Shown piece by piece: positions 5,467 to 31,800 of a DNA stretch of 64,000 nucleotides. The position numbers were made by a program, and so were the translations under genes. Below the pieces are notes generated by a model. That model searched no databases and was not told the origin of the DNA. It was given only the letters and a program-made list of their open reading frames with translations. The stretch lies in contig JAIVFI010000003.1 of NCBI GenBank assembly GCA_025558095.1, forward strand, positions 496,001 through 560,000, given 5' to 3'. Each line of letters opens with the position of its first letter. Position 1 is the stretch's first letter. This DNA is from Hyaloraphidium curvatum. Lineage: Eukaryota; Monoblepharomycota; Hyaloraphidiomycetes; Hyaloraphidiales; Hyaloraphidiaceae.

Positions 5467-5745
5467 ACGATGCGTGTTGTTCTATGGCCAACATGTGTCA
5501 AACTTTCTCGCTGAAGCTATCCAGTTCACGTCAGGACGAAGCTCCGGATCTTCGGGGATTCGAGTGCTCGTTAAGTCCCAATCCGACAACCGCACGGACA
5601 CCGACTCTAGGCATCATCATTGCCGCTTTAGTTAGAGGGACAAAGAGAGCAGTGGACTGTTCCTGTCCAGTTTCGGGCCGCCGCGGCAGGCCGGCCCCAT
5701 CGGGGCTTCGTTCGTTTGCGTCTTTGCCAGCACGAAGAAAAGAAA

Positions 5746-5983
5746 GCTGGACAGCAGCCCGAGAGAGTGCGATACGGGAGCCATCCGGGCGGCTGCTGAG
5801 CAAGCCCAGCGACACCGCCGTTGCCAAAAAGAAACATTATGCAACGAAGGTCAGTGACCTTCGATATAGACATAAATCTGCGGTGGGGCGCGGGATGAGC
5901 GGTTGCTGGAGCGGCGCGGCGCGGCGGACGCACCTATATAGAACAGATACTACACTTGATCTTAGCCAATAGGCCGAGAGGAT
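5746..5983 (-). ncRNA. U2: U2 spliceosomal snRNA gene, copy A, interrupted by a 56-bp intron
   Basis: The RNA 5' end is at 5983. The sequence then reads CUCUCGGCCUAUUGGCUAAG followed by AUCAAGUGUAGUAUCUGUUC, which is the U2 5' domain including the branch-site-pairing GUAGUA. A GT-AG insertion occupies 5878-5933 (GTGCGT...CCGCAG). Splicing it joins AUAUAG to AUUUAUGUCUAUAU, giving a 7-bp stem IIa. Next come stem IIb (CGAAGG/CCUUCG), a U-rich Sm-like site (UUUCUUUUUGG), stem III, and stem IV with a U2B''-type loop (UAUCGCACUC) closed by CCCG/CGGG. Exons 5934-5983 and 5746-5877 give about 182 nt, close to the ~188 nt of vertebrate U2; unspliced it would be 238 nt. The 3' end is approximate. Confidence 0.92.
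5878..5933 (-). other. mRNA-type intron inside U2 snRNA copy A
   Basis: 56 bp, 5' GTGCGTCC and 3' CCGCAG, with GCTCATC about 15 nt before the 3' end as a possible branch site. Length, donor type and GC content match protein-gene introns in this window. It splits stem IIa, and the exon junction restores the stem. The sequence is identical in copy B. Confidence 0.85.
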
Positions 5984-6654
5984 GGGCAAAATCTTTGGTG
6001 CGGGCGGTGCATTTGTTGCCGTCCGGGGCCCCGAGCTTCTGGGGGGAGCCGTATTTTTGGGTGCGCAGCAGCCCTCAATCCACCGCTGCGCATGATGACG
6101 GCGCCGCCGGGCCGTCCGGAGGGGTCGGGCGGGGCCGGAAGGTCGCCGCAGGACGGCGTCCGGCGTCCGGGTTGGAGCGGGCCTCGGAGTCCCGGGATGG
6201 AAAGGGACCGTGACCTTTCCCAGGCAAAACATGCCGTTCCTTCATTCGACCGAAGTAGGGCACTGGATACTGAACCTGCTGAACCTTGCGTGATCCCATG
6301 AACCCGGAGCGAACTTGTGAACCAGGCGCATCCCGCGAAACGCGCATCATTTCAGCAGTCCACGGTAAGCCCGAGCTGCTTTGGGCCGTGTAGAGACAAT
6401 GTAGGGAAGCAATGTAGGCCCCCTGAAGCCCATTCCGGCGGCAGAATGGAGGTGCTCAAGTTGCGCAAGTGCCAGACGCCGGAATCCCCGCGCTTGCCCT
6501 GGCCCCGAGCACCAGACATTCCCTCTGTGTGAGAAGCTTCATTCACGGCGCCGATTCTGGCAATTGGCCGGTTGAACATCGTCGTGTGCAGTGACAGGTC
6601 GCGTGCCGGCGCGGAGAAAGAGGATCATCAACACAAACACTGCGAATTGCAAGG
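5984..6654. other. Gene-free stretch between U2 copy A and the LRR gene
   Basis: The first ~230 bp (to 6212) are the U2 upstream flank shared with copy B and probably hold its promoter. The remainder (6213-6654) has lower GC. I find no conserved ORF or RNA; it should contain the promoter of the downstream secreted-protein gene. Confidence 0.6.
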
Positions 6655-8489
6655 ATGCCTCGCCTTCCCCGGACCGTGCATGGGCTCCTGTTTGCCTGTG
6701 CGCTGGCATTGCCAGGCACCCGCGGCAGCAGCGCCCCGCCGTCCGCGTTCTTCGAATGCGCGTTCGTCGACGCCGCGCTCAGCTACTTGGGCAGCCCGCC
6801 TCTGGCTCCGCCCAACGCATCCGCCAACGCGTCGTGGTGCTGCGGCCTTGACATGTCTTCCGGAAACTCCCGGCGAACCGTGACGTGCGCCGGCGCCGCC
6901 GCGGGGACCAACGGGTCCGCGACCGTGACGGAGCTGTGGTGGACAAACTCTGGCCTCAACGGGACCCTCGCGGACCTGACGCCGTCTTGGCTGCCTTCCC
7001 TGAAGGTGCTCAATCTGGCGGGCAACCCGGGGCTGACGGGCCCGTTTCCTACGTTCCTCGTGAGGGAGAGCAAGTCTCTCGTTTATCTGTAAGTTCCTTT
7101 CTCCGTCAAGCTGTCGATGCTTGCCCTGACCTCTGTTGCCGTACAGAAACCTCGAAGGCAGCTCAATTCATGGCTCGGTACCGGATCTGTCGTACCAGAA
7201 GCTGGAGTACCTCTACCTGCGCGGGACGCGCCTGCGGTCGCAGGTCGTCCTGCCATCCTTCATGCGGCAGTGCTTCCTCGTGCCCGGCGTGGATTCCATG
7301 TGCTTCCAGCAGGGTGCGCGGATCCCACCCGCGTGTGCAGCTACGGGAGCGGAGCGGTGCCCGTCCAACACCACGCTCCCGACGGCACCGCCGGCGTTGA
7401 TCGAATGGAAGTGCATTGACGGCTACAACACCCCCGTGCGGCTGGTCTCGGACGGCGCGGATCTCGTGCCGGCATGCATGACCATGGACGGAAAGAGCTG
7501 CGTCTTCACCGCGACGCCAGCAGAGTGCGACGTCTTGGCCGCGACACCCCTGCCAAACGCGATCGCCTTGACGTGCGGCCAGATGTTTGCAGACGTCTAC
7601 GGCGCATCCGGCTATTCCTACAGCCCCAGGACGTGGTGCACGGCCGCCTTTTACTCCCTTGCTTCGCCGGCCGTCATCCGGCCTTGGCCGTTCAGCCCAC
7701 ACTCACAAAATTACACGTGCCTGCCGGGCATCCACACGCCGCTGACGATCATCCACGAGACGGGCGAAACGGGCTGCATGCTGGCCCCGAGAACGCCCGA
7801 CTACCCACCCGGCTGCCTTTGGATGGGCTCCCAGGAGGGCTGCGAGGCCGTTGCTAAGGCGCCTCCCGCAGGCGTCGACGTCAACGATCCCTTTAGCTGC
7901 GGGAACTGGTACCGAGAAGTGTACGGCTGGGACGGGTGGGTGTGTTTCCCCGTGCACGGCTGCCCAAGAGCTGACGGATCGGCGCAAACTTGACAGCTAC
8001 AACGCGTCGGATCCCCACAACTGGTGCTCCCTCGGACGCAGTTACCTCTACGTCAACCAGACGGATATGCATGGCAACGTGACCCTTTTCCCGACAGCGA
8101 CCACTACGACCATCACGTCGATCTCGATCCCGACCGTCTCCCTCACGGGGACGGGCTCCCTCCCCCAGAGCCCGTACTTCTGCGTGCAATCGGTCAACAC
8201 CCCGATCCGAGTCTCGCCAAACGGCGTTGACGTGGCGTGCATGAGCATGGACGGCTACCTGTGCTACTGGCTGCCGAACTCGGATTCCTGCCAGCTCGCC
8301 GCCGGCAAGGGCGACTCGAGCACGTCTTACCTCTCCTGCGTGGGTGTTACCCGTGGCGGAGAACGCAGACCTCTCTGACCTGACTTCAACCAGGGCGCGG
8401 ACTACGACGCCAAGTACGGGACGAAGGACGGGGGCTACACGCCAGGAAGCTGGTGCACGATCGGGAGGGCGGCGCTCCTAGGTGTGTGA
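6655..8489 (+). CDS. Secreted LRR protein with Cys-rich tandem modules
   Basis: Exons 6655-7088, 7147-7935, 7997-8339 and 8394-8489; 553 aa; introns of 58, 61 and 54 bp, each with a CTGAC near the 3' end. Residues 1-25 form a signal peptide (LLFACALALPGTRG). Residues 30-80 resemble a plant-type LRR N-cap (WCCGLD...VTCAG), followed by about three short LRRs (SLKVLNLAGNPGLTG; LVYLNLEGSSIHG; KLEYLYLRGTRL). Three ~85-residue Cys-rich modules follow, with pattern C-x-NTP-[IV]-R, MDG-x2-C, C-x-LAA, C-[AG] and Y-x3-[GW]WC. The last module is the shortest and ends at WCTIGRAALLGV. Many N-glycosylation sequons are present. No transmembrane anchor or GPI signal is evident, so it is probably secreted or wall-associated. 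I do not recognise the Cys module as a named domain. The donor-like GTGTGTGAG at 8482 leaves open a further 3' exon. Confidence 0.75.
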
Positions 8490-14951: not shown

Positions 14952-16917
14952 ATGAGCGCGCCTCCGGGCTATCAAGGCGCACCACCGCCCGGCTACGCGC
15001 CTGCATATCCTCCTCCACCGCCTCCGGGGACCGGTTATGGGACTTCCGCGCCGCCTTCGTACGCCCCGGGCCCGCCGACAGCAGGCCCCGCAGAGCCCGT
15101 CTCGTGCGTTCACCATGGAGCTTGGACCCTCCTCCACAATCTTAACCCTCGTCGACGACAGCAAAGTTGAACTCAGATTCAGCTGCGAGAACCTGCCCAA
15201 CTTGGACGTGACATCGAAGAGTGATCCCCAAATCTTCGTTTTCCTAAAGACTCTGCTCCCGGGCCAGCTGGGCCAGACCGCCCGGGAGGCGTTTGTGGAG
15301 CTTGGCCGGACGGAAGTCGTCAAGGACAGCTTGAATCCTCGGTTCTCGACGCCATGCGTCATGGACTACTACTTCGAAGCTGTGCAGAACTTGCGCGTGG
15401 TCGTCGTGGACTCCGATAGCTCCAACCCTTCGGCCGGCTTGACTGCCCATGATTTCCTTGGGTACTGCGACGTGACCGCCGGTGAGAGTCGGGGAACTGT
15501 GCGAAAGCCTCATTGGCCAAAGTGTGACCTAAGCCGCAGGGAACATTGTCGCCTCGGGAAAGGCTAGCGCTTTCGAGCGCAAGCTTACGATGCAGGTTCC
15601 GCCAGGCATGTCCGTCAAACCGCCTTCTACTGCTCTCGTGAACCGGGGCGGGACCCTCAAGATTCAGGTGGAGGAGCTGGACGTCAACGGGGCCAAGCAG
15701 TCGGTCGTGCTCCGGCTGAGGGGATCCAAGCTCGATAAGAAAGACATGTTTGGAAAGTCCGACCCGTTTCTGGTCATTTCCAAGGCGAGGCCGGACGGTT
15801 CCTTTGCGGTCGTGCACAAGACCGAGGTGATCAAGAACACGCTGGACCCCACCTGGCAACCGCAGCGGCTGAAGATGGACGTGCTCTGCGGGGGCGACGT
15901 GAACCGGATGCTGCGCTTCGAGTGCTTCGATTGGGACAAGGACGGCACCCACGACCTGATTGGCATCTTTCAGGCTCCGCTGTCGGCCGTGACGCGCGGT
16001 GCAAGTTTCGCGCTCATCGAGCCCAAGAAGCAGGCCAAGAAGGGCAAATCGTACACCAACTCGGGAACCATCATTGTGGACGACGTACAATTCCACCGGG
16101 AGTTTTCGTTCCTGGACTACATCACCGCGGGAACGCAGATCGAGCTGGCAGTGTCCATAGACATGACTCAGAGCAACGGGGATCCGAACCATCCGGCCAG
16201 CCTACACTACCGCAACCCGAATCCCCGGATCCCGAATCCGTACCAGATGGCCATAACTGCGATTGGACAGGTGCTCGAGCCCTACGACGCCGACGGGCGG
16301 TTCCTTGCTTACGGCTACGGCGCGAAACTGCCGGACCAATCTGTCAGTCATTTTTTCCCTCTAGGGCTGGCGGCGGGGCCCGAGGTGCAGGGCGTGCCGG
16401 GCCTTTTGGACGCCTACAACCGGGCCCTTGGCACCGTGCAGCTCTGGGGCCCGACCAACTTCTCGAACACCATCAACGCCATTGGGGCTTGGGCCAGAGG
16501 ACCCAATCCTGGCGAGACTGTGCTCTCCCGCTATTGTATCCTCCTGATCATCACGGACGGTGCGATTACCGATCTTGACCAGACAATTCGGGCCATTGTG
16601 GACGCCTCCTACCAGGCCCTGTCGATCATCATCGTCGGCGTCGGGAATGCGGACTTCTCGACAATGGACGCGCTTGACAGCGACGATAGGAAGCTGCAAA
16701 GCGGTGGGAAAGTTGCGGAGCGCGACATTGTCCAGTTTGTCCCTTTCCGGTGAGCCTGAACCCGTGGTACTCGAATGCCTAGCGTGATTTTCGCATCATT
16801 GGCAGCCGCTTTAATCCCAACGACTTCCATGCCCTTTCGACCGTGACGCTGAAGGAGGTGCCGGGGCAGTTCATGGCATATGTTGGGACAAGGGGGCTGA
16901 AGCCTTTTGGGGCGTGA
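14952..16917 (+). CDS. Copine 1: two C2 domains plus copine/VWA domain
   Basis: Exons 14952-15103, 15162-15481, 15540-16749 and 16806-16917; 597 aa. Residues 1-50 are a Pro/Gly/Tyr-rich tail (GYAPAYPPPPPPGTGYG). C2A (about 55-170) has LPNLDVTSKSDPQIFVFL, and C2B (about 200-310) has LDKKDMFGKSDPFLVIS and FECFDWDKDGTHDLIG, both with Ca2+-binding aspartates. The copine A domain (about 340-590) has AVSIDMTQSNG, in which the usual D-x-T-x-SNG reads D-M-T-Q-SNG, then GDPNHPASLHY, GFGAK-like YGYGAKLP, and LLIITDGAITDLDQT. Copines bind membranes in a Ca2+-dependent way and act as signalling adaptors. A close paralogue lies at 23615-25536 on the other strand, so this is a local pair. Confidence 0.93.
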
Positions 16918-18108: not shown

Positions 18109-20375
18109 TCACATTCCCACCAATGTGTTCAGTGCCGAGTGCACCTCGGACGGGTCGTCCTGGTGGCCCTCGGCCGTGTCCGTCAGCGCCTCGACTTGTG
18201 CCGAGTGGAAGTTGATGCCCTGAGCGGGCGGCAACTCGTGACCGTAGTTGATTGTTGCAGAGACGCGCCGCATGTACGCCTGCAGGGGATGTCGGTCGAT
18301 CTCGATCGGGGGTCGCGGTAGGACAAGATCGAGTCCAACTCACCTTCCAGCTGTCGCTGCCGCCCTCCCTGCCTCCACCGCTCTCCTTTTCCCCGCCAAA
18401 GGCACTCCCAATCTCGGTCCCGCTCGTGGGAACGTTGACGTTGACGATGCCGCAGTCGGAGCCCATCACAGAGGTGAAACGGAACGAGGCCCGCATGTTG
18501 GTGGTAAAGAGCGCCGACGCCAGGCCCTGGGGCACCGAGTTGTTGATTTGGATCGCCTCGTCAAGTTTCTGCAGTGTGGCGAGCAGTTTAGAGGAATGAT
18601 AGTCACGCCGGTCCAAGACGTCAACGAACCTTGAACTTGGCGGTGTAGAGAATGGGAGCAAACGTTTCGCGCTGCACAATGAGCGCGAAAGGGTCGATCT
18701 TGATGATGGCGGGCCTGACAAAGAGGCCACCCTTGAGGTCGCCAGGGAGCTCCAGCACGTCACCGCCAAAGATGACCTCCCCGCCCTCCTTCTTGGCCTG
18801 CTCGATGGTCGCACGGAATTGGTCCACCGACTCGGGCTTGTGCAGCGGGCCGCACATGGTCCGGGGCTCCAGAGGGTCGCCAATACGGATCTGACGGTAG
18901 GCGTGGACGAGGGATTCAACAAAGGCGTCGTACGAGCTCTGCTGGACAAGCAGGCGGCGAGTCGATGTGCAACGCTGGCCGGTGCTCCCGATGGCGGAAA
19001 AGACGGTGCCACGCAGGGCAAGGGCCATGTCTGCGTCGTCCATGACAACTGGAGAACGAACGGTCAGCGATCACGGCGGTGAGGAATGCGGGGCAGAACC
19101 AACTGATGGCGTTGTTGCCGCCCAGCTGGAGCACCGTCCTGCCGAACCGCTCCTGGACGACCACGCCGACGTTGCGGCCCACAGCGGTGCTCCCCGTGAA
19201 GCTGACAAGCTTGTAGCGATCGTCCCGGCACAGGGCTTCGCCGATGTCGGCCGTGCCGGTACACAGCGAAGCGACCGCGGGGTCGACCTTGTGGCCGATC
19301 AGGACTTTGGAGATGAGCTTGGTCATGGCGATGGCAACGAGGTTGGTGGAGAGCGCGGGCTTCCAAACGGTGGTGTTGCCGCAGACGAGGGCGACGGACA
19401 TGTTCCACCCATAAACAGCGCAGGGGGAGTTGAAGCTGGATAGCGTTTTTGCGTCCATCAATGCGAGTGGCGGGGACCGCGGGCCCGCGCGACCCACGTT
19501 GTGATGATGCCGACCACTCCGAGCGGGTGGTAAGCCTCCAGGAGAAGGTGCTGCTTGCGCTCGCTGGGGAGCGTTTTGCCCTCGAGCTTCCTGCTCAGCC
19601 CCAGTGCGAGCTCGGTCATGTCGATAAACTCCTGGACCTCGCTCTCGGCTTCCGCGAGAAGCTTGCCGACCTCGAGAGAGATGAGCCTTGCCAGCTTCGG
19701 CTTGTGGAGGCGCAAGGTAGCGCCAATGTCGCGCACAACAGCACCGCGGGTCGGCATGGGGGTCTAAAGGTGGAACGGTCGAGGACACCGGCGGTCAGCT
19801 GTCAGTTCACACGCAAAAGCCGAAATCAGGTAAAGGCTCCCGAGAGCAGCAATGTCCGGAGCTCCGGAGCTGGACCACTCAAATCAACGCTCCCAGCTTT
19901 AGCTCATTGGACCCCTGCCGTCGTGGCGTCCCTGATTCCGTCAGCAACCCACCCGCTTCCAGCGATCCCACGCCGCGCGTGCCCGCTTGGAGACCGCGTC
20001 AAGATCCTCCTTGCTGCCCGTTGCAACCTCGGCGATCACGCGGCCCGTGCTCGGGTTCAGGCAAAAGACGCGCTCCCCGCTGCCCCGCCATTCGCCGTCG
20101 AACACGCCCTGGTTCGCCTCTGCCAGGCCCAACGAGGACAGCAGCTCCGCGTGGTGGGCGTACTCCGAGACCAGGGTATCCGATGGCGGGACGGCGGCGT
20201 AGCCGCGGACGGCGGGCCTCGCCGGGGCGGGCGCGATGCGGGGCACCTGGCGAGGCCGGCCGGCCGCGGCCCACGGCCTCGCGGGCGCCGCCGCCGCCGC
20301 ATGCAGTGTGCGAGCAGCAACCCGCGACGGGATGCGCAGCAGCCGCGACGCGGCAGTCGTCCGCGGGAGGGACAT
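18109..20375 (-). CDS. ALDH7A1-type (antiquitin) aldehyde dehydrogenase, mitochondrial
   Basis: Exons, minus strand: 20375-19953, 19763-19498, 19435-19104, 19048-18630, 18568-18344 and 18279-18109; 611 aa. Residues 1-60 are an Arg/Ala-rich presequence without acids (ASRLLRIPSRVAARTLHAAA), indicating mitochondria. The body aligns with antiquitin: NQGVFDGEWRGSGE, LPSERKQHLLLEAYHPLGVV, VYGWNMSVALVCGNTTVWK, VSFTGSTAVGRNVG, GSTGQRCTSTRRL with the nucleophile Cys (codon 18969-18971), and FGGEKESGGGREGGSDSW. In the family it oxidises alpha-aminoadipic semialdehyde/P6C in lysine breakdown. The expected general-base Glu in LLELGGNN is Gln here (LQLGGNN, codon 19126-19128). About 28 extra C-terminal residues follow the usual end. 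The first intron is 189 bp. An in-frame ATG at 20471 is less likely as start. Confidence 0.92.
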
Positions 20376-21020: not shown

Positions 21021-21248
21021 CACGGTCATTTCCATCCCGGGACTCCGAGGCCCGCTCCAACCCGGACGCCGGACGCCGTCCTGCGGCGACCTTCCGGCCC
21101 CGCCCGACCCCTCCGGACGGCCCGGCGGCGCCGTCATCATGAGCAGCGGTGGATTGAGGGCTGCTGCGCACCCAAAAATACGGCTCCCCCCAGAAGCTCG
21201 GGGCCCCGGACGGCAACAAATGCACCGCCCGCACCAAAGATTTTGCCC

Positions 21249-21486
21249 ATCCTCTCGGCCTATTGGCTAAGATCAAGTGTAGTATCTGTTCTATATAGGT
21301 GCGTCCGCCGCGCCGCGCCGCTCCAGCAACCGCTCATCCCGCGCCCCACCGCAGATTTATGTCTATATCGAAGGTCACTGACCTTCGTTGCATAATGTTT
21401 CTTTTTGGCAACGGCGGTGTCGCTGGGCTTGCTCAGCAGCCGCCCGGATGGCTCCCGTATAGCACTCTCTCGGGCTGCTGTCCAGC
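21249..21486 (+). ncRNA. U2: U2 spliceosomal snRNA gene, copy B, interrupted by a 56-bp intron
   Basis: Exons 21249-21298 and 21355-about 21486; intron 21299-21354 (GTGCGT...CCGCAG), identical to copy A. Spliced length is about 182 nt. Features in order: the conserved 5' end with GGCUAAGAUCAAGUGUAGUA; junction-formed stem IIa (AUAUAGA / UCUAUAU around loop UUUAUG); stem IIb (CGAAGGUCACUGACCUUCG); a U-rich Sm-like site UUUCUUUUUGG; stem III (GGCGG...GCUG/CAGC...CCGCC); and stem IV closed by CCCG/CGGG with loop UAUAGCACUC. The one difference I see from copy A in the mature RNA is this loop base (A instead of C). Both copies look intact and functional. Confidence 0.92.
21299..21354 (+). other. 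mRNA-type intron inside U2 snRNA copy B
   Basis: 56 bp, GT-AG, same sequence and position as in copy A. It interrupts stem IIa between the two halves of the helix. Retention of an identical intron in both genes fits duplication after insertion, or later gene conversion. Confidence 0.85.
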
Positions 21487-21761
21487 TTTCTTTTCTTCGT
21501 GCTGGCAAAGACGCAAACGAACGAAGCCCGATGGGGCCGGCCTGCCGCGGCGGCCCGAAACTGGACAGGAACCGTTCACTGCTCTCGTTGTCGTAGAGAA
21601 ATGGTGCTACGTGCCCTCGTTGGATGGGCTGTCCGTGCTGTTGTCGGGGGGCCGGGTTGCGAATGCGCTCGAGCCGCACGAGGTTGGCGTTTCTTCGTAT
21701 TTGATGAATGAGCAACTTCCATGTTTCATATTCAAAAAGCAATACAAATGTGGCAGCCAAA

Positions 21762-23614: not shown

Positions 23615-25536
23615 TCACGGCTCGCCGATCGGCTTCAGCCCGCGCCGCGTCGCATACTGCACGAGCTGCTCCGGCACCTCAGCTAGCGTCGCAGCAGACA
23701 GCGCGCCAAAGTCGTTGGGATTGAAGGCTCTGAACGGGACGAACTGAACGCAGTCCCGTTCGGCCCTCTTGCCGCCCGCCTGAAGCACTGCGTCGTCGCT
23801 GTCCAGCAAATCCATACTGCTGAAGTCCGCACCACCGACGCCGACGATGATGATCGACATTGGAAGCGCGGAGGCGTCGACGACGGCCCTGAGGGGAGGG
23901 TGAGGAGAATGACAAGTGGCTCCCCGACCTCCACACCCACTTTATCGTCTGATCCAGGTCCGTGATGGCGCCATCCGTTATGATGAGCAAGATGCAGTAC
24001 TTGCGCAGGTGCCTGTCGCCGGGGGGCATGGAGGACCGTACCCATTGCCCGATCGAATTGATCGTCGTGGCGAAGATCGTAGGTCCCCAGAGCTGGTTGC
24101 CGTACAGTGACCTGTGCGCCAAGAACCGTCAGTAGCTCGACAGGCGCAGCCGATAGGGACCCACTTATTGTACGCCTCCATCAGCCCCGCCACCCCGATC
24201 ACCTCGGGCCCCACCGCCCCGTTGAGAGGGAAGAAGTGGCTGACAGTCCCATCGGGCAGCTTGGCACCGAAGCCGTAGGCGAGGAACCGCCCGTCGGCGT
24301 CGTACGGTTCGAGCACCTGGCCGACGCTCGACAAGGCACGCTGGTACTCGTTCAGGATCCGCGGATTAGGGTTGCGGTAGTGCAGGCTGGCCGGATGGTT
24401 CGGGTCACCTGTTGGTCGATCGGTGGTTAGATTCCGGGTGCAAAGATCGATGCAGAAGCCATGCCGTTTGATTGCGTGAAATCTATAGACACCGCCAGCT
24501 CGATTTCCGTGCCCGCCGTGATGTAGTCGAGGAAGGAGTACTCGCGCTGGAAAGAGACATCGTCCACGATGATGGTTCCCGAGTTGGTGTACGATTTGCC
24601 CTTCTTGGCCTGCTTCTTGGGCTCGATGAGCGCGAACGTGGCTCCCCGGGTGAAGGCCGACAGGGGCGCCTGAAAAATGCCGATCAGGTCGTGGGTGCCG
24701 TCCCGGTCCCAATCGAAGCACTCGAAACGCAACATCCGATTGACGTCGCCGCCGCAGAGCACGTCCAGCTTCAGTTTGAAGGGCTGCCACACCGGATCAA
24801 GGGTGTTCTTGATCACCTCGGTCTTGTGGACCACAGCAAACGCGCCGTCGTTGCGCGCCTTGGAAATGACGATAAACGGGTCGGACTTCCCGAAGAAGTC
24901 CTTCTTATCCAGCTTGGATCCCCTCAGCCGGAGCGTGACGGACTGCTTGGCGCCTCCGGCGTCGAGCTCCTCCACCTGCACGCGGAGCGTCCCCGGCCGA
25001 GACTGCGCCGAGGCCGGCGCGGGCTTCAGGTCCATCCCGGGAGGCACCTGCATCGAAAACTTGCGCTCGAACGCGTTGACCTTCCCAGAAGCCACCAAGT
25101 TTCCTAATTGCACGTCGACATGACCAAGGTAGTCATGGTCCCGCAACGGTGCCGTTGGCGAGGGGTTATCCACGTCGAGGCACACGATCCTCAGGTTCTG
25201 CACGCTCTCGAAGATGTAGTCCATGACGATCGCTTTCGCGAAGCGGGGGTTGAGCGAGTCCCGAATGACCTCCGTCCGCCCGATCTCAAGCAGCACCTCG
25301 CGCGCCGTCTGTCCGGGCGGGCCGGGACGCAGCTGGCGGAGGAAAACGAACAGCTGGGGGTCCGATTTGCTCGTGATATCAAGATTGGGCAGCTGCGAGC
25401 AGCTGAACCGCAGCTCGACTTTGGCGGCCGGCGCAGCCGGCCCGGGCCCAGGCGCGGAGGCATTGTAGGACGGCAGCCCTGCGGTCGGGGGTGGCGCCGC
25501 GGGGTACGGCGTGTAGGGCGGGAGATTGGCCGACAT
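23615..25536 (-). CDS. Copine 2: two C2 domains plus copine/VWA domain
   Basis: Exons 25536-24465, 24408-24165, 24111-23941 and 23888-23615; 586 aa. The architecture matches copine 1 (14952-16917): a Pro-rich start (MSANLPPYTPYPAAPPP), C2A with LPNLDITSKSDPQLFVFL, C2B with LDKKDFFGKSDPFIVIS, and a copine domain with SIDFTQSNG, LLIITDGAITDLDQT and SIIIVGVGGADF. The two proteins are highly similar throughout, but exon 1 here is unbroken where copine 1 has two introns. The first intron (24409-24464) is most easily read as GC-AG: the exon must end AACG to give SNGDPNHP, the intron starts GCATGG, and a perfect CTAAC precedes CAACAG. Function as for copine 1. Confidence 0.92.
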
Positions 25537-28800: not shown

Positions 28801-31800
28801 CTTCCAGCTCGTTCTCGAACGACGCCTTCTGCTCCGAGAACTCTGCGATCCGCGACCGCTCCTTGGAGAGCTGTGCTTCAAGAGCCGATACCTGCGTCGA
28901 CAGTTTCTCCGCTTCGACGAGAGTCGTGCGAAGATCGGCATCCAAAGCTTCGATAGCGGACGCCTGTGCGGCTGCCTGGTCCCGGCAAGCCTGCAGCTCC
29001 TGCTCAAGGGCGTCCTTGCCCGCAGAGATATCCGAGAGCCGCGACCGCTCCGAGTCCAGTTGCGCTTCCAGAGCGACAGAGTCTGGCGCAACGATCTCCT
29101 CTTCAACGACCAGCTCACGCTCAGGACTCAAAGAAGCGGCTTCGGATGCCAACCCGGCGATTTCCTTCGGTGCAACAGATGGAGCGATCTGCAACTGCGA
29201 GTCCCTTAGCCTTCCTTCCCGCATCGCACGTGACGAAAGCAGCCTCACCTCCAGTTGTGTAGCTCGTGCAGAAACTTCTAGTGCATCTGTCGTCGCCACG
29301 TCCAAAACCGACGCCTCCAATTCCAAGCCGGCTTTACGCGCGGTTGCTTCGGCGACCCGCGACCGCTCCAATGCCAGTTGCTCCTGGAGTGCCTGCGCGT
29401 CGGCGGAGAACTTGGCCACTTCATCGCGAACAGCACCGAGAGCTGCTTCCGCGACAGCTACTTGGGCAACGAGCGACGTAACCTCGTCCTTGCAGGTCTG
29501 CAGCTCCGCGGCGAGAACCCCCTTGCGCCGGTCAGCTTCGGCGGCATTTGACCGTTCCGCGGCGAGCTGCTCCTCCAAAGCGGCAAGGTCCGTTGAAACC
29601 CGTTGCGCTTCGTCCCGCGCGGCGAGCAAAAGGACCTCTGAGTCGGCAAGTTGCGATGTCTTCGCGGCCACGTCTTCCCTGCACGACTGCAACTCGTTCT
29701 CGGCAGCTTCTTTCCGCTGTGCCACGTCGGCGAGGTCTGCGGCGCCCTTCTGCCTTGCGTCCTCGATCTCTTTAACAGCTGCCTCGAGCGCGGCAAGCTC
29801 CAAAGCACGGGTCGCGAGCTCATCCTTCGATACCCGGAGCTCCCCGGCGAGAACATCCTTGCGCTGCCCGGCTTCGACGGCAGCTGATTGTTCCGCGGCA
29901 ATCTGCACCTCCAACCCGACAATGTCGGCGGCAATTTTCTGCGCTTCGTCCCGCGCGGCCAGCAAAGCGGCCTCCGAATCGGCAAGCTGCCTTGCCTTTG
30001 CCGCGGCGTCGTCCCTGCAGGCTTGTAAATCCTTCTCGGCGGCCTCCTTCTGTTGCGCCACATCGGCGAGATCCGCAGCAGCTTCCTGTTTCGCGTCCTC
30101 GATCTCCTTGACCGAGGCCTCGAGCGCGGCAAGCTCCGACGTCCGCGCCACGAGCTCGTCCTTGGATGTCTGTAGCTGGTCCTGCAGCGTCCCTTTGCGG
30201 GTTTCGGCTTCGGCAGCAGACGACCGTTCCGCGGCTAGCTGCTCCTCCAATCCGGCAAGGTCCGCGGAGACCTTCTGCGCTTCGTCCCGCGCGGCCAGCA
30301 AAGCTGCCTCCGAATCGGCTAGCAGCAACGCTTTTGCGGCCGCATCGTCCCTGTAGGCCTGCAAATTCTTCTCGGCGGCCTCTCTCCGTTGCACCATGTC
30401 GGCAAGGTCCGCGACGGCCTTCTGTCTCTCGTCACCGATCTCCTTGACGGCAACCTCGAGCGCGTCGAGTTCCGACGTCCGCGCGGTGAGCTCCTCCTTG
30501 GACGCTTGCAGCCGGTCCTGAAGTTCAGCCTTGCGCTTCTCGGCCTCAGCAACCTTTGCCCGCTCCGATGCCAGTTGCTCCTCCAACCCAGCGGTGTCCG
30601 ATGCGGATTTATCGCCCTCCTTCTGCGCGTCCTTCAGCGCAGCTTCCAGAACCGCCTGCGATTCGGCAAGCTGCGACGCCTTCGCAGCGGCTTCGTCCTT
30701 GAATGCCTGCAGGTCCTTCTCGACGGCCTCTCTCCGTTGCGCCATTTCGGCAAGGTCCGCGACGGCTTTCTGCCTCTCGTCCTCGAGCTCCTTGATCGCG
30801 GCCTCGAGAGAAGCAAAGTCCGACGTCCGCGCCGCGAGCTCCTCCTTGGACGTCTGCAGGTCCTTCTGCAGCGCCACCTTGCGGGTTTCGGCCTCGGCTG
30901 CCTTTGCCCGCTCCGACGCCAGCTGCTCCTCCAGCGCCGCCATGTCCGATGCGGATCTGTCGGCCTCCCGCTGCGCGTCCCTGAGCGACGCTTCCAAAGC
31001 GGCCACGGCCGCCAGTCCGGCCGCCGCCGCATCCTGCACCGACTTGAGCCGGTCCGCCAGCACGTCCTTTTCCCGCTCGGCAGCCTCGGCCCGCGCCTGC
31101 TCCGCCGCGAGCGGCCCGCGCAGGTCGTCGGCCGCAGTCGCCGTCTGATCGGCGTGATCCCGCGCCGTCCGCAACGCCGCGGATTGCTCCTGCACGCGGA
31201 CCTCGGAGTTCGTGGTGCTGCGTGCCTCTGAGGCGAGCCCTGCGAGGCCGGCGACCACGGTAGCACCTCCGACGACCGCGGCAACCGATCCCAAAGTGGT
31301 TGCGCCGCGCGATTCCGCGGAACTGCCGGCTTCCTGGGCTGCCTTCAAGGCTTCCTGCAGCGCCGCGCTCTTCCTTTCCGCGTCAAGTTCGGCCTGCACG
31401 GCGGCGAGCGCGAAGGCGGTGTCGCCCGGCCGCGAGACGTCTGGAGCCGGGGAGGAGACGAACTCGGTCGCGGCGGAGGAGGGTGCCGGGGATATCGGCG
31501 CGTCCGAGTGCTTGGGGGTTGCGGGCTCGGGAACCAGGAGGCCGGGCTCTTCCGGCGCGGCTTCGGGGAGGTCCGGCGCGAGGCCGCGCCCCGAGTTCGT
31601 GGCGGTGGCAATGCCGCGCCCCGAGTTCGTGGCGGTGGCAATGATGGCTGTGACGACGGGAGCTGCCTCTGAAGCCGAGGACGTTGGCGCAGCGTCCAAG
31701 CTTTCGGTCGCGACGATATGCGCGGGCCGAGCACCGGTCTCCGCCTCTGCCTTGAGCTTCCCGTACGAGTGCTGAAGGTATCGTACGCCGACTTCTAGAC

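Follow-up and report, generated by a model that had tools for sequence, protein, structure and literature searches.

A probable spliceosomal intron in stem IIa of the two U2 snRNA genes identified in Hyaloraphidium curvatum

Analysis of a 64,000-nt stretch of the genome of the fungus Hyaloraphidium curvatum (hereafter the window) confirmed that its U2 snRNA gene carries a 56-nt insert and that this insert is real. We put the probability that it is a major-type (GT-AG) spliceosomal intron, which would be spliced out of the U2 precursor, at roughly 0.9. This reading is based on the sequence of the insert, on its resemblance to introns of protein genes in the same genome and on the structure predicted for the RNA after its flanks are joined.

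U2 genes and the position of the insert

The window was searched with the Rfam U2 model RF00004. The original prediction of a U2 gene with canonical parts at 21249-21486 was borne out by a match to the full model that far exceeded the gathering score of 46 (110.4 bits, E 2e-21), but it had overlooked a second full-length match with the same score on the opposite strand (Table 1). The two genes, designated copies A and B, differ at a single base over the 244 nt of the match, and the mismatch lies in the loop of stem-loop IV. Their 56-nt inserts are identical. As revealed by self-BLAST of the window, the copies sit in an inverted duplication of 574 columns with 98.6% identity. Because the two copies have different outer flanks and nevertheless share the same insert, the insert is not an assembly slip. 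The GUAGUA sequence for branch-site recognition, stem I, stem IIb and the Sm-like site were all present, as judged from the Rfam alignment, from our comparative alignment of U2 sequences (alignment A1) and from pair counts.

Table 1. Coordinates of the U2 genes and associated features in the window
Feature	Position	Strand	Basis or remark
U2 snRNA gene, copy A (span of the original prediction, 21249-21486)	21247..21490	+	RF00004, 110.4 bits, model positions 1-192 of 192
Exon 1: 5' domain, stem I, branch-site-recognition GUAGUA, 5' arm of stem IIa	21249..21298	+	Rfam alignment, alignment A1
56-nt GT..AG insert, putative spliceosomal intron; 5' splice site GTGCGT, candidate branch CTCAT, 3' splice site CCGCAG	21299..21354	+	
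Exon 2: loop IIa, 3' arm of IIa, IIb, Sm-like site, stems III and IV	21355..21490	+	Rfam alignment
U2 snRNA gene, copy B, inverted	5742..5985	-	RF00004, 110.4 bits, model positions 1-192 of 192; 1 mismatch in 244 nt with copy A
Insert of copy B, identical to that of copy A	5878..5933	-	
Duplicated block with U2 copy A and flanks on both sides	21021..21592	+	Partner 5639-6212 (-); self-BLAST
Element AAACGAACGAAG, common downstream of U1, U2 and U4 genes	21515..21526	+	Near-matches after U5 and U3

The Rfam hit table gives both genes as 244 nt and leaves the insert unmarked. Precisely between the arms of stem IIa, the alignment skips 64 nt in place of the 8 of the model, and this is where the 56-bp GT...AG insertion had been proposed. 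The insert starts with GTGCGTCC and finishes with CCACCGCAG. Three equivalent insertion registers are possible, and GT..AG ends are obtained in the register of Table 1 only. By hand count on alignment A1, the insertion point is flanked by nt 52 and 53 of an ordinary U2, exemplified by locus L010 (see below). Subtraction of the 56 nt from 21249-21486 leaves a predicted joined RNA of 182 nt for that span, in agreement with the length proposed originally.

An intron-free U2 gene elsewhere had been named among the observations that would refute the intron, and it was sought in two ways. A search of the whole genome (31.9 Mb, 55 contigs) with RF00004, in which 45 of 62 first-look candidates were scored, returned two U2 matches, both of them in the window. 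A 25-nt query across the joined junction, for which as many as three mismatches were tolerated, had no match in the genome and thus identified neither an intron-free gene nor a retro-copy recording splicing. Because no intron-less copy was found, the second U2 copy strengthens the case. The insert together with flanking bases was also used as a query across the genome for an intron donor, and only the two U2 genes matched.

Two further sets of repeats were noticed in the window. Overlapping repeats of 72-75% identity occupy 29483-31004, inside an open frame of 1,892 codons without a Pfam match. Diverged inverted duplicates, 69-76% identical, were found at 15162-16686 and 23793-25423, the second of which overlaps an open frame with C2 domains.

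Intron signals of the insert and structure of the joined RNA

The insert was compared with a reference set of 17 H. curvatum introns from three genes, six from an ALDH gene, ten from Prp8 and one from a WD40 gene. All 552 residues encoded by the ALDH gene (P0005, an aldehyde dehydrogenase domain-containing protein annotated by the depositor) are recovered exactly from the window once six introns of 43-294 nt are removed. Spliced alignment to P0126, a protein of Basidiobolus ranarum, yielded the ten Prp8 introns of 51-62 nt, and the neighbouring WD40 gene contributed an intron of 70 nt with the 5' splice site GTGGGT. A second Prp8 reference, P0132, reproduced eight of the ten introns exactly; the three others that it proposed (33, 223 and 162 nt) were apparent misalignments and were excluded from the training set. 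Intron 2334-2384 and, at its donor, intron 7454-7508 were kept from P0126 without support from P0132. The 5' splice sites of the Prp8 introns were GTGCGT (5/10), GTGGGT (3/10), GTGAGT (1/10) and GTCGGT (1/10). With 56 nt, the insert falls within the length range of the introns in these three genes, and its GTGCGT start is the one seen in half of the Prp8 introns.

A splice-site matrix was built from the 14 introns of less than 100 nt in Prp8 and ALDH, the two ALDH introns above 100 nt being excluded. The U2 insert scored 18.1, compared with leave-one-out scores of 7.7-19.5 for the 14 short introns and 16.3 for the held-out WD40 intron. Among 10,041 GT..AG pairs of 45-70 nt on both strands of the window, eight scored at least as high as the insert, and two of these were the U2 inserts themselves; five of the eight also had a branch motif as good as that of the insert. 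Of the six high scorers outside U2, one is the annotated ALDH intron 18629-18569 and another uses the donor of a second annotated ALDH intron, at 18343; the remaining four lie on the minus strand and may be introns of further genes. When the insert was shuffled 400,000 times in the given register, 283 shuffles had GT..AG termini and 45 reached the score of the lowest-scoring real intron, while none reached that of the insert.

The best branch motif of the insert is CTCAT, whose A lies 18 nt from the 3' end by our count. On a branch-site scale devised ad hoc for this analysis, CTCAT is weaker than CTGAC and CTAAC, which occur in 5 of the 14 short introns, and it is the best motif of one of the 14, a Prp8 intron. 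The branch motif is the weakest signal of the intron reading. The insert also has a very high G+C content and, in contrast to many of the other introns, no T-rich 3' part. The region of its 5' splice site is predicted to pair with the 5' end of the genome's own U1 at -5.3 kcal/mol, and the corresponding values for the 14 short introns and the WD40 intron extend from -1.6 to -9.7 kcal/mol. The insert by itself folds no better than its shuffles (z -0.27). A minor-type (U12) intron was considered and set aside, since GTGCGT is unlike a U12-type start. Apart from the weak branch motif, the sequence comparisons agree with the original proposal that the insert resembles protein-gene introns in length and splice signals. 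In length and 5' splice site it is compatible with the 17 introns, and its CTCAT branch-like motif is a weaker match.

Joining of the flanks gives AUAUAGA/UCUAUAU. That this would build stem IIa had been proposed from the sequence, and fold prediction concurred, with stem IIa appearing in the spliced model only. For the six pairs AUAUAG/CUAUAU, the predicted pairing probabilities were 0.505-0.946 in the spliced RNA as opposed to 0.000 in the unspliced RNA, all fold predictions being those of naked RNA. The predicted cost of imposing stem IIa is 0.43 kcal/mol when the RNA is joined (seven pairs), compared with 7.98 kcal/mol when it is not (six pairs).

Sequences for comparison were retrieved with a conserved U2 22-mer. 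It had no match in the viral_contigs collection, and four stretches in the genome_contigs collection matched it, all of which are eukaryotic U2 sequences under bacterial labels (L010-L013). Two of these four loci also contain U1, and one contains 5S and histone stem-loops. The four represent contamination of bacterial metagenome-assembled genomes (MAGs). Three U2 sequences from these eukaryotic contaminant contigs were used, with the partial L013 and a second, minus-strand match of the 22-mer in L012 excluded. In comparison with the three, both partners have changed at four of the seven pairs of stem IIa. The seventh pair (A-U, involving the first base of exon 2) is absent in the other three U2s, and the first pair assigned to stem IIb is likewise unformed in them. 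When the 22-pair structure was evaluated as a whole, 92.1% of pairs were standard, as against 27.4-43.4% after sliding by 1-3 columns. The seven pairs of stem I are uninformative on covariation because they are invariant across the compared U2s. Stem IIc, whose name and role come from work on yeast, is an alternative pairing between loop IIa and the stretch after IIb. It is kept in H. curvatum and has changes on both sides at two of six pairs; its covariation is modest, and 10 of 500 shuffles reach its score. A stem IIa with a short loop, together with the competing stem IIc, is obtained for the joined RNA model only.

These results bear on the alternative that the insert is never removed and persists in mature U2, where it would extend stem IIa by a long loop specific to this lineage. 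The unspliced gene does still score 110.4 bits against the Rfam model, and large extra stretches are carried by some fungal U2 RNAs such as that of Saccharomyces cerevisiae, albeit elsewhere in the molecule. A retained loop would, however, come at the expense of stem IIa, given the vanishing pairing probability and the high cost of forcing predicted for the naked unspliced RNA. Nor would a GTGCGT start, a CAG end and a length typical of the genome's introns be expected of a neutral loop, and no shuffle attained the splice-site score of the insert. We therefore regard retention of the insert as improbable.

According to the preferred reading, removal of the insert as an intron, both U2 genes found would be interrupted by one 56-nt major-type intron inside stem IIa. 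Polymerase II would presumably transcribe U2 as a precursor of about 240 nt. Existing spliceosomes, containing mature U2, would recognise GTGCGT, CAG and the branch region at CTCAT in this precursor and excise the insert. Once joined, the RNA would measure about 182-186 nt and adopt stem IIa or its competitor, stem IIc. From the sequence we infer both transcription and spliceosomal excision of the insert, and hence that the whole supply of U2 would depend on pre-existing U2. If the assembly is complete, new U2 could be made only where U2 is already present.

Other small RNA genes and the possibility of a missed U2

Searches with further Rfam families identified at least two copies each of U1, U4, U6 and U3 and at least one of U5. 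These copy numbers are lower bounds because only part of the candidates was scored in each search. The two U1 copies scored 63 bits, below the gathering score of 69.5. No comparable insert was present in the alignments of U1, U4, U5, U6 and U3, the last of which covered one of the two copies. Thus, U2 is the only interrupted gene among the six families searched (U1, U2, U3, U4, U5 and U6).

U1, U2, U4, U6 and U3 each occur as two near-identical local copies in direct or inverted orientation, with starts 1.7-15.5 kb apart (in the window and on contigs C2, C10, C42 and C8 of the assembly, G000). This arrangement suggests that the paired snRNA genes are under concerted evolution.

The U1, U2 and U4 genes share an element, AAACGAAYGAAG, which starts 16-25 nt past their Rfam ends. 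It has 14 matches genome-wide, compared with nine for the reversed control, and 6 of the 14 lie at snRNA genes. At the other eight loci, Rfam searches gave nothing at E values up to 0.05 and two matches far below threshold at E 4-5. AAACGAAYGAAG is possibly a 3'-end signal, equivalent in fungi to the snRNA 3' box. No TTTT run occurs within 1.2 kb downstream of either of the U6 genes on contig C42 (L003 and L004), so the usual polymerase III stop is missing at these copies. The sequence GGATACGAATAGACC downstream of U6 has a faint likeness to the element that follows the other snRNA genes. Comparison by eye also pointed to a motif of the type CCCRTAATTT about 50-80 nt upstream of U1, U4, U5, U6 and U2, which reads CCCAAAATTC at U5, CCCAAAAATA at U2, CCCGTAATCT at U6 and CTCATAATTT at U4. 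This motif may be an snRNA promoter element.

The survey of snRNA genes is pertinent to a second alternative, in which both U2 genes are dead or minor and a working, intron-free U2 resides in unassembled sequence or was missed. The 55-contig assembly comes without a completeness figure, and 17 of the 62 first-look candidates of the U2 search remained unscored. In addition, both copies lie within one duplicated block; their score is below those of the U2s on the contaminant contigs L010 (172.1 bits) and L011 (131.6 bits, truncated), and the Rfam alignment contains some non-standard pairs in stems III and IV. Against this, the joined-junction search, which is independent of the family search, found nothing. 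The conserved elements of U2 align, and stems IIa, IIb and IIc covary. The downstream element common to U1 and U4 is present at U2 as well, and a pairing of the U2 5' end with the genome's U6 is predicted. Finally, U1, U4, U5 and U6 were all found, and U1, U4 and U6, too, exist as two near-identical local copies. A hidden working U2 thus appears less probable still than a retained loop. Removal by a tRNA-type endonuclease, by Ire1-like cleavage or by self-splicing is the least credible of the alternatives: introns of these kinds do sit near hairpin loops, as this insert does, but 56 nt is too short for a group I or II intron, the termini are GT and AG with a start that fits the genome's own 5' splice-site pattern, and the insert has no special fold.

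Precedents and implications

H. curvatum is assigned in the NCBI taxonomy to Fungi, chytridiomyceta, Monoblepharomycota, Hyaloraphidiomycetes. Given its place in Monoblepharomycota, it is not one of the yeasts that, to our knowledge, have introns in snRNA genes. The closest precedent is found in Rhodotorula hasegawae. Its U2 intron, said to be 60 bp long, reportedly follows directly on the sequence that recognises the branch site, and introns are reported from U6, U1 and U5 of this yeast as well. Both the U2 of H. curvatum and, by this description, that of R. hasegawae have a single short mRNA-type intron in the conserved 5' half. The hosts differ, R. hasegawae being a basidiomycete yeast and H. 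curvatum a chytrid-side fungus. The sites appear to differ as well: the H. curvatum insert lies inside stem IIa, whereas that of R. hasegawae is described as just following the branch-site-recognition sequence. In contrast to the introns reported for U6, U1 and U5 of R. hasegawae, the U1, U4, U5 and U6 genes of H. curvatum have none. The existence of an mRNA-type intron in the U2 snRNA gene of R. hasegawae was reported in 1993 (Takahashi et al., as cited in an excerpt of PMC2586383). An intron in a U2 gene is thus a kind of feature known already, with R. hasegawae as the precedent.

Introns in other small RNA genes are more distant parallels. The U6 snRNA genes of fission yeast and other fungi contain introns (Tani and Ohshima 1989; Canzler et al. 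2016; both as cited in an excerpt of PMC5832005). There, too, a spliceosomal RNA gene is cut by a spliceosomal intron, but the snRNA and the host lineage are different, and the U6 genes of H. curvatum, unlike that of fission yeast, have no such insert. In fungi, U3 snoRNA genes also carry spliceosomal introns, mostly in the 5' half; a survey of 147 genomes reported none in the U3 genes of Chytridiomycota and other early lineages (PMC5832005). At the time of that survey, no small structured RNAs apart from U3 and U6 were known for frequent interruption by introns (PMC5832005). These U3 introns also reside in the gene of a structured small RNA, but U3 acts outside the spliceosome, and both U3 genes of H. 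curvatum are without a comparable insert. The original statement that no case was known in this kind of fungus is in line with the open-licence literature, in which the matches listed included no report of a chytrid U2 intron, although this does not show that such reports are absent. As far as can be told from the literature searched, the phylum of occurrence is new, and the position of the intron is probably new as well.

U2 is needed for the removal of every major-type intron. With an intron in every U2 gene, the splicing machinery would therefore rely on a product of its own previous activity. We offer a wider proposal tentatively, rating it at somewhat less than even odds. It holds that no intron-free U2 exists in H. 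curvatum and that its U2 forms a self-perpetuating loop, which would be unable to restart once lost and could meter U2 levels. It further supposes a gain of the intron within Monoblepharomycota, separate from the yeast cases and at a new site in the IIa/IIc switch, possibly by reverse splicing into U2 within the spliceosome.

If confirmed, the U2 intron of H. curvatum would extend the occurrence of introns in snRNA genes from yeasts to an early-branching fungal phylum and would suggest that such an intron was gained independently. Because the interrupted gene is U2 rather than U6, it would offer a natural test of the entry of introns into snRNA genes by reverse splicing. It would also provide a system in which assembly of the U2 snRNP and splicing of U2 are separable.
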